DNA of 64,000 bases from Chitinophagales bacterium (GTDB lineage Bacteria; Bacteroidota; Bacteroidia; Chitinophagales; UBA10324), in assembly GCA_019694975.1 (NCBI GenBank), contig JAIBAY010000002.1, positions 323,252-387,251 on the forward strand, given 5' to 3'. The translations under genes were made by a program, and so were the position numbers. The notes beneath the pieces were generated by a model. It saw only the letters and a list, made by a program, of their open reading frames with translations. It was not told the DNA's origin and did not search any database. Positions 56,634-64,000 of this stretch are shown here, one piece after another. Each line of letters opens with the position of its first letter. Position 1 is the stretch's first letter.

Positions 56634-56877
56634 CTCTACAGCAATGGGAATCCCGCTTGTGGAACCAAACAAAAGATACTAACCGGTAAAAGTTGAAACA
56701 TGATGTTTCGAATTGCAGACAGAATGTTAGGTTAACACATCATCCTGAGATTTCAGGTTATCGAAACAAAGCATTTCATCAGATATGAATGAATTACATC
56801 TGCAATTCCAAAAAACGAATGGCCTGAAATCATACCTTGCTTGCCATAGCTTATTTCGCGGCTTCCCGAATGATTTA
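56634..56877. other. Intergenic region
   Basis: About 240 bp after the permease. No hairpin with a T-run or protein-like frame is seen. Confidence 0.5.
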
Positions 56878-56885
56878 TAATTTTA
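56855..56885 (+). promoter_or_regulatory. Candidate promoter of the first tandem adhesin gene
   Basis: TTCG (56855-56858), 19 bp, then TAATTTTA (56878-56885), a 7-of-8 match to TAnnTTTG. The layout is the same as the promoter of the paralogous gene downstream (TTCG, 19 bp, TAAATTTG), with the proposed ATA start 20 bp beyond the -7 box. Confidence 0.4.
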
Positions 56886-56904
56886 GAACCTGACACACGT
56901 CGCC

Positions 56905-59238
56905 ATACCATTTTTCTACAGGACATCATCCGCTTATTTTTCAGTACTGCTGTTCATGCAGCTGATCATGTTTACCCGAACAACCTTTGCGCAGATTCCC
57001 ACCGAACAGGATTGTCTCGGCGCCATTCCGATATGCGACTTCATCTGGACGACGGGTAGTTCCACTCTGGGTAGCGGCAATTATCTGAATGAAGTAAGCC
57101 CGGGCACCTGCCTCGTTTCCGGCGAATTAAACAGCACCTGGTTTACGTTTACGGTCATCAATTCCGGTGATCTTGCTTTTGTGATCACGCCGATAGACCT
57201 TACCGCCGATTATGACTGGGCACTCTATAATCTTACGAATGCATCTTGTGAAGAAATACCTACCAACGGTTCCCTGATGGCGAGTTGCAATTCATCACAA
57301 TATGGGGTAACCGGTATTTCTTCTACCGGCAGCGGCAACTGGAATGGCCCCGGACCTACACTGGCATTTAACTACCTTTTACCGGTTGCAGCCGGTGAAA
57401 CCTTTGCATTAAATATTCATAACTGGAGCACTTCCAATGGCGGATATTCCATCGATTTCTCCACTTCCACCGCAACCATCTTTGATACCGTACCGCCAAT
57501 ACTTCAGATTGTTTCAACCATCGGATGTAATCCTACATCACTCACCTTCACCTTTTCTGAAAACGTGTTATGCAGTACGGTGCAGGCAGGAGATTTTGCA
57601 CTTTCAGGACCTGGCGGACCCTTTGTTATCAGCAGCGTAACAGGTGCAGCCTGTGCAAGCGGCGGTGTGCAGGAAAAAACTTTCATCATCGACTTCTCAC
57701 CGGCATTGGAGAATGGTGAAACATATACTTTCGGATTAACCGGTTTGGCCGGCTATGTAACTGATTTATGCGGAAATATTGCAGATACCTCTTCGCTCGT
57801 ATTCCAGGCGCCGGGGCCGTTGATTCAAACAGACTCCATTCACCAGCCGGTCTGCAGCGCCAACAGCGGGGCTATCTATGTGTCCGGAATCTCAGGAATA
57901 AGTCCCTACAGCTATTCTTTGAATAATGGCGCCTTGCAATCCAGTGGCGCCTTTACCGGACTTTCAGCAGGCAATTATCTGATGACCGTAACGGATAGTG
58001 CAGGTTGCACGGATACATTAACAGTGAATTTATTGCCCGGCCCCGGCGGCGTTGATGCAGCCATCGTTTCTTCCACCAACCTGAAGTGCCCGAATGAATG
58101 CACCGGCAGCATCACCGTAGCAGGTAACGGAGGCACAATGCCATATACTTATGCATGGTCGAATGGCGGACCAGCCTCGTCCACCATCAATAATCTTTGC
58201 GCCGGATATTATACTGCCACCATTATTGATGCCGCCGGATGTTATGATACTGCAGGCGTACTGCTGCAGCAACCTGATACCTTTTTGGTAACAACAACTC
58301 AGCTGGTGCAGCCTTCGTGTAATGGCTATGCTGATGGACACATTACTGTTAATGTTTCGGGCGGAACGCCGGGTTATACATTTGAATGGTCGCCGGAAGG
58401 CGGCACAGGTTTAACAACCACCAACATCGCTGCGGGATTATATACTGTTCTGGTTACCGATGCAAAACAATGTACCTATAGCGCCATTGTGATTTTATCA
58501 CAACCGGCACCGGTGACTGTTACGCCACCTGCTGATACCATTGTCTGCGTTGGAACAGGCGGAGATTTGTTTGCCGATGCCAATGGCGGCACTCCACCAT
58601 ACTCCTTCATTTGGGAAAATATTTACACCGGCAATCCATTTCCTGTTGCTCCTCTTCATGACACAGCTTATTCAGCTATTGCCATCGACAGTCATGGCTG
58701 TCAGAGTGAGCCGCAGGTTTTTAATGTTATTGTTGACCAAGTTCCTGTTGTGGATTTGGGGAAGGACTCTATCCTGTGTATTGGAGACTCTATTGTACTA
58801 TCCGCTGCATTTCCAGGGGCATCTTACAGCTGGCAGGATGGATCCACGGCCGATAATTTTACCATTCTGCTTCCAGGTATCTATTGGGTGACGGTTTACA
58901 ACACTTGCTTTGACACTTCCGACACATTGATTGCTGATTACACCGATTGTTCCGCCTGTGTACACTATCCTACCGGATTTTCGCCTGACGGTAATCAGCA
59001 GAATGACCTTTTCCGACCCGTAATCACCTGCCCGGTGAGTGAATACAATATGAAAATATTTAACCGCTGGGGACAACTGATCTTTGAAACCAGCAACGTG
59101 AATGATGGCTGGAACGGTGAATATCTGCAGCAACCGGCCGAAGTGGGAGTTTATGTTTGGACAGTAGATTATACAGGCCTTCGCCATGCAACCTACTTCA
59201 CCGAAAAATTGTCAGGCAATGTGACGCTCCTCCGCTAA
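56905..59238 (+). CDS. Tandem adhesin-like T9SS protein A (probable ATA start)
   Basis: 777 aa if translation starts at ATA (56905), 760 aa from the first ATG (56956). The first 30 residues from the ATA align without gaps to the signal peptide of the paralogue at 59367 and supply the missing N-terminal part of the hydrophobic core. The ATG start would leave only about a 13-residue leader. Domains: a Cys-containing beta domain (DCLGAIPICDF, DYDWALYNLTNASC), an SbsA-type Ig-like domain (LTFTFSENVLCS, VTDLCGNIAD), at least three SprB-type repeats, and a type B gliding-motility sorting domain (YPTGFSPDGNQQNDLF, KIFNRWGQLIFE, GNVTLLR). It is a probable surface adhesin. Confidence 0.85.
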   Translation: MPFFYRTSSAYFSVLLFMQLIMFTRTTFAQIPTEQDCLGAIPICDFIWTTGSSTLGSGNYLNEVSPGTCLVSGELNSTWFTFTVINSGDLAFVITPIDLTADYDWALYNLTNASCEEIPTNGSLMASCNSSQYGVTGISSTGSGNWNGPGPTLAFNYLLPVAAGETFALNIHNWSTSNGGYSIDFSTSTATIFDTVPPILQIVSTIGCNPTSLTFTFSENVLCSTVQAGDFALSGPGGPFVISSVTGAACASGGVQEKTFIIDFSPALENGETYTFGLTGLAGYVTDLCGNIADTSSLVFQAPGPLIQTDSIHQPVCSANSGAIYVSGISGISPYSYSLNNGALQSSGAFTGLSAGNYLMTVTDSAGCTDTLTVNLLPGPGGVDAAIVSSTNLKCPNECTGSITVAGNGGTMPYTYAWSNGGPASSTINNLCAGYYTATIIDAAGCYDTAGVLLQQPDTFLVTTTQLVQPSCNGYADGHITVNVSGGTPGYTFEWSPEGGTGLTTTNIAAGLYTVLVTDAKQCTYSAIVILSQPAPVTVTPPADTIVCVGTGGDLFADANGGTPPYSFIWENIYTGNPFPVAPLHDTAYSAIAIDSHGCQSEPQVFNVIVDQVPVVDLGKDSILCIGDSIVLSAAFPGASYSWQDGSTADNFTILLPGIYWVTVYNTCFDTSDTLIADYTDCSACVHYPTGFSPDGNQQNDLFRPVITCPVSEYNMKIFNRWGQLIFETSNVNDGWNGEYLQQPAEVGVYVWTVDYTGLRHATYFTEKLSGNVTLLR

Positions 59239-59318: not shown

Positions 59319-59349
59319 TTCGCCTGCTGACAAATGATTCATAAATTTG
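59319..59349 (+). promoter_or_regulatory. Promoter of the second tandem adhesin gene
   Basis: TTCG (59319-59322), a 19-bp spacer and TAAATTTG (59342-59349), the latter a full TAnnTTTG match. The ATG lies 17 bp further on, at 59367. Confidence 0.5.
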
Positions 59350-59366: not shown

Positions 59367-61706
59367 ATGCGCCACCTTTACAAGATAACTGCGGGATATC
59401 TCTGTCTATTGATTGGATGCTGCCTTATGTTGCAGCCGGCTGCTTGCATTGCGCAGATTCCTACCTTCCAGGATTGCCTGGGAGCAATTCCGGTTTGCAA
59501 CCAGGTTTATCAGACACCAAGTTCAACATTCGGAACCGGTAACTATCCCAACGAACAAGGCCCTGGCACTTGCCTTATTCCGGGTGAATATAACAGCAGC
59601 TGGTACACTTTTAATATCAGCAGCAGCGGAACCTTTGCATTCACCATTGTGCCTGCCTCACCCGGTGCTGATTATGACTGGGCCATGTATAATCTGACCA
59701 ATGCAAGCTGTGCTGAAATTCAGACGAATGGTTCGCTGATGGTGAGTTGCAATTCTTCGCAGTACGGCTTCACCGGTATTTCCGCCAGCGGTTCCGGTAA
59801 CTGGAACGGTCCCGGCCCGACGAATGCCTTCAATGCTTTGCTGAATGTAAACGCCGGAGAAACCTATGTACTGAATATCAATAACTGGAGCGGCACAACA
59901 GGTGGTTATACCGTTGACTTCAGCAGCTCAACGGCTTCCATTTTTGATACCGTGAAGCCTTATATCAGCAGTATAGATCCTGTCATCTGCAATAACAGTC
60001 AACTCACATTTAATTTTTCTGAAAATATTCTTTGTGGCAGCGTACAGGCAGCTGACTTTTTAATTACCGGCCCCGGCGGCCCTTATACGATCAGCAGCGT
60101 AGCCGGAGCCACCTGCCTCGCAGGCGGAACGGCAGAAGTAACCTTTACGGCGAATGTTTCTCCGGCCATCACTACCGGCGGCAATTATCTTTTGCATCTA
60201 ACCAGCTTATCAGGATCAGTTACAGATCTGTGCGGACTCAATGCAGATACGGCCGCTGTGCCATTCTTTGTAAGTGCTGTGCAGGCCGTGATTGATTCAG
60301 TGGTACAACCCACCTGCGGCGGTTATAACGGAGAAATCTTCGCATCAGGCACCGTTGGCACACCACCCTATCAGTTTTCCATCAATGGAAGCCCTTATCA
60401 AAACGGCAGCTCATTTAGTGGCATGGACAGCGGTACCTATTACATCACTGTCAAGGATTCTTTTGGATGCGTCGATACTGCCATTGTAACTTTCCAGCCT
60501 TCCACCGGTGCCGTAAAAGCCACCAAATTATTCGCGCAGGATATCAATTGCTTTAATGCATGTGACGGTGCAATTTCCGTATCCGGTGAAGGAGGCGTTC
60601 CTCCTTATGCTTATTTATGGAATAACGGTGCACCTCCGAGCGCGAACATCGGTGGCCTCTGCCCTGCTAACTACAAAGTAACTGTAACAGATGCTTATAA
60701 TTGTTCCGATACACTCAGTATCGTCTTAGCTGAACCACCCGAAGTGCATTTCCAGGTAACCGATCTGAAGAATGCGGTGTGCAATGGATATAAAGACGGC
60801 AGTGTGTCACTTAACATCACCGGCGGCAATCCACCTTTTACCTATGTCTGGACTCCTTACGGTGGTGGAAGTAACACAGCAACCGGTCTTGGTGCAGGAG
60901 AATACAACCTTCTGCTGATTGACATTCATCAGTGTAAATACGATACGGTTATTACCATCAAAGAACCGGATCCGCTGGCCATTATATATCCGGGTGATAC
61001 CACCATTTGTTTTGGTACACAGGCACGGCTGACAGCACCAGCCGTTGGAGGCAATGCAGGATTGTATGGTGTCATCTGGAACAATGGCGTTTCAGTTGAT
61101 GACCCATATTTCGTTCAGCCATTTCAGGATCAGACCTATACGGCCGTTGCTTTTGACGACAGTAGTTGTTTCAGTCAGCCACAGGAATACAGGGTGTATG
61201 TAGCTCAAAAACCGCTGATAGATTTAGGAGAAGACTCTGTATTATGTTATGGAGAAGTATTATTCAAAGATGTCTTTTTCCCAGGCGCAGAATACCGATG
61301 GCAGGATGGCTCCATCTATCACGATTATGCGATCCGGGAACCCGGCTTGTATACCGTTGATGCCTACAATAGCTGCTTCCATACATACGACAGCCTTTAT
61401 GTTGCCTTTGATGACTGCGGAAGCTGCCTGCATGTACCCAATGCCTTTACTCCAAACAATGACGGATTAAATGATCTTTTTGTTCCTGCTATTGGCTGTG
61501 ATTTTACATCCTATGATTTCAAAGTATTCAACCGTTGGGGCCAGGTGGTATTTTCTACCAATGATCCCAATGCAGGCTGGAACGGGCAAAACGATAATAA
61601 GCCGGCTGAAATGGGTACTTATGTCTGGACAATTGCTTATGAAGGAACCGAGCATGGCCTGAAACTTTCGGAGCATTTGACCGGTGGCGTAACACTGATC
61701 CGATAG
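59367..61706 (+). CDS. Tandem adhesin-like T9SS protein B
   Basis: 779 aa. A clear signal peptide (MRHLYKITAGYLCLLIGCCL) is followed by the same architecture as its neighbour at 56905: the PTFQDCLGAIPVCN domain, an SbsA-like domain, SprB-type repeats (GEGGVPPYAYLWNNGAPP) and a type B sorting domain (PNAFTPNNDGLNDLFVPA, FKVFNRWGQVVF, GWNGQND, GGVTLIR). The two proteins align over their whole length and are separated by 128 bp, so they arose by tandem duplication. The TAG stop is the first three bases of repeat R3. Confidence 0.92.
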   Translation: MRHLYKITAGYLCLLIGCCLMLQPAACIAQIPTFQDCLGAIPVCNQVYQTPSSTFGTGNYPNEQGPGTCLIPGEYNSSWYTFNISSSGTFAFTIVPASPGADYDWAMYNLTNASCAEIQTNGSLMVSCNSSQYGFTGISASGSGNWNGPGPTNAFNALLNVNAGETYVLNINNWSGTTGGYTVDFSSSTASIFDTVKPYISSIDPVICNNSQLTFNFSENILCGSVQAADFLITGPGGPYTISSVAGATCLAGGTAEVTFTANVSPAITTGGNYLLHLTSLSGSVTDLCGLNADTAAVPFFVSAVQAVIDSVVQPTCGGYNGEIFASGTVGTPPYQFSINGSPYQNGSSFSGMDSGTYYITVKDSFGCVDTAIVTFQPSTGAVKATKLFAQDINCFNACDGAISVSGEGGVPPYAYLWNNGAPPSANIGGLCPANYKVTVTDAYNCSDTLSIVLAEPPEVHFQVTDLKNAVCNGYKDGSVSLNITGGNPPFTYVWTPYGGGSNTATGLGAGEYNLLLIDIHQCKYDTVITIKEPDPLAIIYPGDTTICFGTQARLTAPAVGGNAGLYGVIWNNGVSVDDPYFVQPFQDQTYTAVAFDDSSCFSQPQEYRVYVAQKPLIDLGEDSVLCYGEVLFKDVFFPGAEYRWQDGSIYHDYAIREPGLYTVDAYNSCFHTYDSLYVAFDDCGSCLHVPNAFTPNNDGLNDLFVPAIGCDFTSYDFKVFNRWGQVVFSTNDPNAGWNGQNDNKPAEMGTYVWTIAYEGTEHGLKLSEHLTGGVTLIR

Positions 61707-61835: not shown

Positions 61836-61913
61836 ATACTTCCGACCTCCGGTATCACGATATGTACTACCACTAACATGATTCATAGTTCCCTTCTTCA
61901 TATTCACCTGCTA

Positions 61914-62150
61914 ATGGATTTTCCAACGATCATTGCCTCGATTGGCGTCAGCCTCCTGCTCATCGCTTTTTTCCTTCAGGTCTTCCAGCTTACGGATGAG
62001 AGAAGCTATACCTATATCGGACTCAATGTGCTTGGTGCGGCTATTGCCTGCTATGCTTCCTGGCTGATAGAATTTATGCCCTTTGTTATTCTGGAAGGTA
62101 CGTGGGGTGCTGTAGCAATAGGCGGACTGGTGAAGAAACTGCGTAGTTAA
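61914..62150 (+). CDS. Small membrane protein of the CBU_0592 type
   Basis: 78 aa from the Met at 61914; an upstream ATG at 61878 would add 12 less convincing residues. Three hydrophobic helices (PTIIASIGVSLLLIAFFLQV, YIGLNVLGAAIACYASWLIE, PFVILEGTWGAVAIGGLVKK) match the small CBU_0592-like family as I recall it, whose function is unknown. It follows the R3 repeat and stands alone. Confidence 0.75.
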   Translation: MDFPTIIASIGVSLLLIAFFLQVFQLTDERSYTYIGLNVLGAAIACYASWLIEFMPFVILEGTWGAVAIGGLVKKLRS

Positions 62151-62244: not shown

Positions 62245-64000
62245 CTATTGAATTTCCGGAACGAAAAGCAGACGGGCCTGTGTGCCCTTCATGTCGGAAA
62301 TTAACTGAAGCTGTTCGTAAACCGAATAAAAAGCCCCGAGTTTCGATTTTAGCGCACTTTGCTCTTTGCCTTCTCTGAACATACTGATCAGTTCAAACAT
62401 ATCCTTATCCACCTCCGGATATTCCACAAGCCGGTAGGTGGTTGATTTTGCAAGATGAGTGGCAACGCTGATTGCATCTTCCAGTCCACCCAGCGTATCC
62501 ACCAACCCGAAAGCCAATGCCTGGCTGCCTGTCCATACCCGGCCTTGTGCAATGGTATCTACGAGGGACGGATCTAATTTCCTGCCCTTTGCCACAGTTG
62601 ATTTAAAGTCGCGATAGATGCTGTCAACGCCTCTTTGCACAATCACTTTTTCATCCTCACGCATCGGGCGGGAGACATCGCCAAAATCAGAATATCTGCC
62701 TGTGTTAACACCGTCGAAGTTTATACCGAGTTTGTCCTCCAGCAATTTCTGCATATTGGGATAGATGCCAAATACACCAATAGACCCCGTGAGTGTATTC
62801 GGCTGTGCAACAATTTTAGTTGCATAAGCTGAAACGTAATAACCGCCGGACGCAGCATAATCACCCATCGAAACCACCACCGGTTTTTTTGCAGCCGTGA
62901 GTTGCACTTCACGTGCAATGATATCGGAAGCCAGTGCGCTGCCGCCAGGTGAATTCACCCTGAACACAACAGCCTTCACTTTATCATCGTCGCGCAATTT
63001 CCTGAGTTGCTTCACAAATTTCTCTGAACCGATATTATCATCGCCTCCTTTACCATCCACAATATCACCGGAGGCAAAGAGTATGGCGATCTTATCCGTT
63101 TCGAGGCTGACTTCTTCTTTTTTGCCCGGTACGGTAAGATACTTCGTCAGTGAAACCATTTGAATCTTATCATCTTCGCCAAGTTTGAGCTGTGCTCTCA
63201 GGTAATCGCGCACCTGGTCATCGAACCATGTCTCGTCGACAAGGCCATAACTTTTGGCATCACGTGCATTTTGCACCAGCAGGTTATTGTTGATGCTGTC
63301 AAGCTGCAGTATGCCGATCTTTCTGCTTTCGGCAATATTTCTCATCACCTTGTCATACACATCCTTCAGGAGCGTCATCGTCATTAATTCATTTTCCCTG
63401 CTCATAGAATCGAGGCGGAAGGGCTCTGTGGCGGATTTGAATTTGCCATCATAAAAAACCTGTGCCTGAATGCCGACTTTGTCAAGCAGTCCTTTGAAAA
63501 AAGGATATTGTGCACTCATGCCGTTGAATTCAACCACTCCTTTTGGATTCAGTATCACCTTATCGGCCACGCTGCAGAGGTAATAGGCTTTTTCCGTGTA
63601 TAATTCAGCATAGGCAACCACAAATTTTCCCGACTTTTTAAAATCAAGCAAGGCATTCCTGATTTGTTCCGTATTCGCCATGCCGAGGCCTATATATCCG
63701 AAACTCAGATAAATACCTTTGATGGAAGGATCGGTCTTCGCCTTTTCTATATTCTTCATGATGTCATAAACTCCCGGCGCTATGGCAGGTTTAAAATCGG
63801 CAAACGACATACCCTGGAAAGGAATGTAAGTCGTTTGTTCCGGGATCTCATAACTCAGGTTTAGATTCAGTACGCTGTTCGGCTTTACGCTGGCCGTTTC
63901 AATGCTTGAAAATGAAGATGCCAAAGCCGCGATAAAAGCGATGACAATAAACAGAAGCAGCAGGCTGCCAATTATGAAAGCGAGCAAAGAACCAAAAAAT
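62245..64000 (-). CDS. sppA: Signal peptide peptidase SppA, 5' end beyond the window
   Basis: At least 585 codons with the start outside the window. The frame is still open at 64000 and already inside the N-terminal membrane helix (LLAFIIGSLLLLFIVIAFIAA). It is a two-repeat (67 kDa type) membrane serine protease with a Ser/Lys dyad. Repeat 1 contains GIYLSFGYIGLG and the Lys-bearing SVADKVILNPKG. Repeat 2 contains VFRVNSPGGSALASDIIA and the catalytic Ser in DYAASGGYYVSA, then NTLTGSIGVFG. It degrades cleaved signal peptides. The TTG at 63987 is not the true start. Confidence 0.95.
   Translation of the reverse strand, partial: FFGSLLAFIIGSLLLLFIVIAFIAALASSFSSIETASVKPNSVLNLNLSYEIPEQTTYIPFQGMSFADFKPAIAPGVYDIMKNIEKAKTDPSIKGIYLSFGYIGLGMANTEQIRNALLDFKKSGKFVVAYAELYTEKAYYLCSVADKVILNPKGVVEFNGMSAQYPFFKGLLDKVGIQAQVFYDGKFKSATEPFRLDSMSRENELMTMTLLKDVYDKVMRNIAESRKIGILQLDSINNNLLVQNARDAKSYGLVDETWFDDQVRDYLRAQLKLGEDDKIQMVSLTKYLTVPGKKEEVSLETDKIAILFASGDIVDGKGGDDNIGSEKFVKQLRKLRDDDKVKAVVFRVNSPGGSALASDIIAREVQLTAAKKPVVVSMGDYAASGGYYVSAYATKIVAQPNTLTGSIGVFGIYPNMQKLLEDKLGINFDGVNTGRYSDFGDVSRPMREDEKVIVQRGVDSIYRDFKSTVAKGRKLDPSLVDTIAQGRVWTGSQALAFGLVDTLGGLEDAISVATHLAKSTTYRLVEYPEVDKDMFELISMFREGKEQSALKSKLGAFYSVYEQLQLISDMKGTQARLLFVPEIQ

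Follow-up and report, generated by a model that had tools for sequence, protein, structure and literature searches.

An ATA codon at the apparent ancestral start position of a duplicated T9SS-sorted surface protein gene in a Chitinophagales bacterium

Introduction

Two tandem genes of a Chitinophagales bacterium encode proteins with SprB repeats and a type IX secretion system (T9SS) sorting domain, and the first of them (gene 1) raises the question of where its translation begins. No canonical start codon in gene 1 yields the conserved N-terminus, and an ATA codon stands at the homologous start position. Initiation at AUA has precedent: in Staphylococcus aureus, infC, ccpN and citZ start at this codon, at sites reported to carry extended Shine-Dalgarno motifs, and the non-canonical starts tested in reporters (ccpN, citZ) gave about 10–30% of AUG expression (PMC13009471). 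Ribosomes of Bacteroidia initiate without Shine-Dalgarno pairing (PMC9976891). We analyzed the pair within a window of 64,000 nucleotides, the whole stretch of DNA under study, from host genome G000 (4.3 Mb in 14 contigs; its nearest named relatives are Chitinophagales MAGs). The coordinates of the features are collected in Table 1.

Table 1. Features of the tandem pair and its neighborhood (window positions)
Feature	Position	Strand	Remarks
TTCG, putative −33 element, gene 1	56855..56858	+	19 bp to −7 box, as in paralogue
Degenerate −7 box TAATTTTA, gene 1	56878..56885	+	consensus TAnnTTTG; A replaces last G
In-frame stop TAG bounding the possible start	56884..56886	+	read in sequence
Gene 1, 777-codon T9SS-sorted protein	56905..59238	+	SprB repeats, Big_5, CHU_C (Pfam); TIGR04131
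ATA at ancestral start codon position (predicted)	56905..56907	+	2462-bp offset; Met alignment column
Predicted signal peptide IPFFYRTSSAYFSVLLFMQLIMFTRTTFA	56905..56991	+	cleavage expected before Gln30
First in-frame canonical start ATG	56956..56958	+	12 residues left before Gln
Paralogue (gene 2) −7 box TAAATTTG	59342..59349	+	full consensus
Gene 2, tandem paralogue, ATG start	59367..61706	+	syntenic orthologue of relatives' single copy
90-aa membrane protein gene, conserved neighbor	61878..62150	+	adjoins orthologue in L052, L054, L296
sppA-like signal peptide peptidase, conserved neighbor	62245..63987	−	52–73% identity beside orthologue, five relatives

Results

Gene 1 is the faster-evolving copy of a tandem pair

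The sorting domain of gene 1 scores above curated cut-offs (TIGR04131, 42.3 bits against a cut-off of 35; Pfam CHU_C, 48 against 27), placing its product among T9SS type B secreted proteins. A comparison of its N-terminal domain with solved structures returned no match. By Pfam and NCBIfam it belongs with the SprB-repeat/CHU_C surface proteins secreted by T9SS, from which it departs only in its start codon and promoter box. Relatives carry one copy, adjoining the 90-aa membrane protein gene, sppA or both, and gene 2 holds that place; identity to the orthologues is 51–63% for gene 2 versus 43–51% for gene 1. Gene 2 is the syntenic orthologue; gene 1 is an older tandem copy that evolves faster. 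The tree joins gene 2 with its orthologue in the same-genus MAG L055 (98/96), the nearest relative found in our scan of genome contigs, meaning either that the duplication predates that split or that the long branch of gene 1 has shifted its position. The branch of gene 1 measures 0.97 against about 0.5 along the gene 2 path, and Tajima tests with four outgroup sequences gave p values of 0.003–0.08, L055 having been set aside since it groups with gene 2 and is hence no outgroup. All 777 codons of gene 1 are open, with pN of 0.35 and pS of 0.78, indicating that selection acted on it for the greater part of its past.

The ATA codon is in register with the start codons of homologues

The ATA is in frame with a 760-codon ORF (56956–59238), within an extended frame that runs from 56887, is bounded upstream by the TAG at 56884 and is open from there to the ATA. 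It lies 2462 bp upstream of the ATG of gene 2, and three ungapped DNA repeats common to both genes (D1, D2 and D4) have the same 2462-bp offset, which fixes the signal-peptide register independently of the start codons. The ATA also shares an alignment column with the Met of the paralogue and of the L055 orthologue. Read from the ATA, the signal peptide of gene 1 has 29 residues up to the Ala-Gln junction, as in the paralogue, with Ala29-Gln30 in both genes, and the L055 orthologue, with ATG in the same column, likewise has 30 residues to Gln. The preliminary description had claimed both that the ATA sits where the paralogue has ATG and that the two signal peptides are equal in length, and each holds exactly. 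Among random upstream 51-mers of this genome, an extension both open and equally hydrophobic arose in 1.0% of draws, a figure that precedes any counting of the exact register.

By contrast, translation from the ATG at 56956 would reduce the best 12-residue hydrophobicity from 2.33 to 0.78, in agreement with the earlier claim that this start truncates the hydrophobic core. Canonical starts of gene 1 give no Sec signal peptide; one results only if the ATA is the start.

To place gene 1 among its kind, we retrieved 5′ ends for 80 T9SS-sorted genes, of which 78 were read, and found ATG, GTG or TTG ahead of the apparent signal peptide, as judged by eye, in every one (78/78). Signal-peptide lengths were judged by counting to Ala-Gln, a cruder length proxy having been dropped. 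An xAQ string was present in 50 T9SS genes, two of them false matches inside the protein; the other 48 with an Ala-Gln junction all have a canonical start 18–39 codons upstream, compared with only 12 in gene 1, the sole T9SS gene found to lack a canonical start at the usual distance (78 surveyed). The repertoire is large for a 4.3-Mb genome, with at least 150 type A and at least 23 type B sorting-domain matches. A third family paralogue, L189 (G000:C3:245712-246712), has an apparent TTG start 21 residues from the junction Ala, and its first ATG leaves 14.

The −7 box of gene 1 has lost a conserved G

Flavobacterium johnsoniae promoters have a −7 element, TAnnTTTG, in which the G at −5 hardly varies, and a −33 motif that is weakly conserved (PMC6847099). 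Both genes of the pair have the TTCG-N19-box arrangement reported in the preliminary description (TTCG of the paralogue at 59319–59322), but the promoters align less fully than was claimed, the gene 1 box TAATTTTA being off consensus and without its final G. The box-to-start gap is 19 bp to the ATA in gene 1 and 17 bp in gene 2, as had been noted earlier. The orthologue comparison that the same description called for revealed five orthologues with ATG or GTG after a perfect box; together with the paralogue, all six comparable genes have a perfect TAnnTTTG followed by ATG or GTG 15–22 bp on. Gene 1 alone lacks G at both sites, the end of the −7 box and the start codon, with A in each; both are bases critical for expression. 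The same-genus and family genes with ATG or GTG are orthologues of gene 2, not of gene 1.

Only 8 TAnnTTTG boxes occur in the 40 bp upstream of the starts of the 78 T9SS genes of this genome, so the −7 box of gene 1 may not be its real promoter. A sigma-70-type scan upstream of gene 1 returned no promoter, as expected for the phylum. The leader would span about 15 nt, and a structure hiding the start was rejected, the 5′ end having a weak fold (−3.6 kcal/mol, z −0.45).

Taken together, the DNA register, the signal peptide, the orthologues and the box spacing give good support to 56905 as the ancestral start position. Of the probable AUA start put forward in the preliminary description, the position therefore stands, through register and orthologues, while the use of the codon would be a prediction from sequence.

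ATA-start infC genes in the family

The infC starts that we read in the window's family are of two kinds. Eight genomes, the host genome among them, have TTG, and seven from two genera (L308, L309, L311, L312, L313, L316 and L317) have ATA GCA in the alignment position where relatives show TTG GCA. In five of these seven (L309, L311, L312, L316 and L317), the open frame holds no ATG, GTG or TTG before the IF3 domain. ATA GCA also begins infC in L367–L369, from another family of the class, and in the members of the family and order that we read, most infC starts are TTG or ATA, not AUG. As infC is generally essential, its ATA starts must work, and in genomes without a canonical alternative AUA initiation looks forced, judging from the reading frames. 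By analogy, and given the reduced output of the S. aureus starts and the lack of Shine-Dalgarno help in Bacteroidia, an AUA start at gene 1 would be feasible but weak. Unusual decoding of AUA was rejected as an explanation: the 40 tRNAs found include no TAT anticodon, every one called as Met carrying CAT, and at internal ATA codons the orthologues mostly have Ile or Val, contrary to an internal reading of AUA as Met.

Discussion

Weighing the explanations

The preliminary description left three options, namely an AUA start, an ATG-to-ATA mutation lowering expression, or an error. We prefer the second, which the loss of G from the −7 box and the status of gene 1 as a faster-evolving extra copy favor: the ATA would be a former ATG altered by a natural, probably recent G-to-A change, leaving little or no product, a reading whose chances we judge evenly balanced. 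Initiation elsewhere is very improbable. The ATG at 56956 is the earliest canonical codon in frame, but it leaves 12 residues before Gln and the less hydrophobic N-terminus described above; a CTG at 56890 is in frame and open, but it falls where transcription is predicted to begin (box at −12 to −5), which would make for a leaderless mRNA initiated at CUG. An error of base calling or consensus, or a minority variant of the sampled population, the cell having ATG, is unlikely, even though the expected ATG is a single substitution away. The 78 T9SS ORFs (about 180 kb) are unbroken from signal peptide to sorting domain, showing indel errors to be rare; sequence words spanning the site, GCCATG and CCATGC among them, show no depletion, so that we rejected a methylation-motif or other systematic sequencing error; and natural start losses are expected at this genome size, whereas consensus errors in start codons should be rarer. 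Natural mutation at 56907 thus appears more likely than error.

A functional, maintained AUA start that deliberately holds the first adhesin copy at a low, IF3-sensitive level would fit the intact frame and signal peptide, the AUA starts known from S. aureus, and the conserved ATA of infC in Shine-Dalgarno-less lineages of the same family. However, the S. aureus sites come with extended pairing that Bacteroidia ribosomes do not use, gene 1 lacks the favorable A at −3, −6 and −13 and has a degenerate −7 box, and none of the 78 other surveyed T9SS genes needs such a start; we regard this explanation, too, as improbable. That gene 1 offers a natural AUA start in a non-infC gene of a bacterium without Shine-Dalgarno pairing, with adhesin levels low and varying with IF3 activity, strikes us as decidedly doubtful. 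A 5′ end switchable by inversion or shuffling was rejected, since the genome has no second copy of 56640–57020 and no inverted repeats flank the start. The S. aureus citZ of the NCTC 8325 lineage is likewise an intact gene with an AUA start in a single lineage, its expression cut to roughly a tenth of that from AUG, but there initiation was measured on ribosomes that use Shine-Dalgarno pairing (PMC13009471), whereas gene 1, known from sequence, has no such pairing and a degenerate box. The AUU or AUA starts of infC, associated with IF3 autoregulation, resemble gene 1 in having an ATN-type non-AUG codon at a conserved initiation position; they differ in being conserved over many genomes in an essential translation factor, while the ATA of gene 1 occurs in one genome, in a dispensable-looking duplicate.

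A proposed history of gene 1

In our preferred reading, that of a lost start, gene 1 is a long-standing tandem duplicate of gene 2 that evolves faster and codes for the same kind of T9SS-secreted protein, and its ancestral ATG would have been changed to ATA by a single natural G-to-A substitution that was probably recent. The sequences show the position of the ATA, the loss of both conserved bases, the intact frame, the status of gene 1 as an extra copy and its faster rate; the natural origin of the substitution, its recency and the strongly lowered expression are the parts that we infer. Transcription would be weak given the missing G of the −7 box, and ribosomes would start at the AUA at a low rate, so that little or no gene 1 protein would be exported. 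Homologues have an intact start that gene 1 has lost, and beyond the start codon the sole further loss is that in the −7 box; a search for frameshifts and stops in gene 1 found none, and all its domains are present. Gene 1 is not classed as an established pseudogene. An ATA long out of use should have brought stops or frameshifts, which leaves a recent change, a used AUA or a wrong base; under the lost-start reading, the frame would have survived either through the recency of the change or through a tolerance of low expression. As a counterpoint, AUA is usable in related lineages, as their infC genes demonstrate, so gene 1 may be working as intended.

A second tandem T9SS pair (C1:173418 and C1:175929; 40% identical) has one broken member. 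L203, a 762-codon T9SS gene and 40% paralogue of the L201 gene, has a TAG in its sorting domain (G000:C1:176037-176039, minus strand), after which the frame runs on for 38 codons with the remainder of that domain. The broken C1 copy indicates that point lesions occur in such T9SS copies, and with gene 1 it is consistent with ordinary decay of redundant surface-protein copies.

Implications

Gene finders would start gene 1 at the ATG at 56956, without a signal peptide, and so mistake a secreted protein for a cytoplasmic one. If the AUA is truly used, gene 1 would provide a rare example outside infC, in a phylum unable to rescue a weak start by Shine-Dalgarno pairing. The ATA-start infC genes of several Bacteroidota lineages make AUA initiation without such pairing directly testable, and this pattern is a better test bed than the modest case of gene 1, extending to IF3 autoregulation without Shine-Dalgarno pairing.
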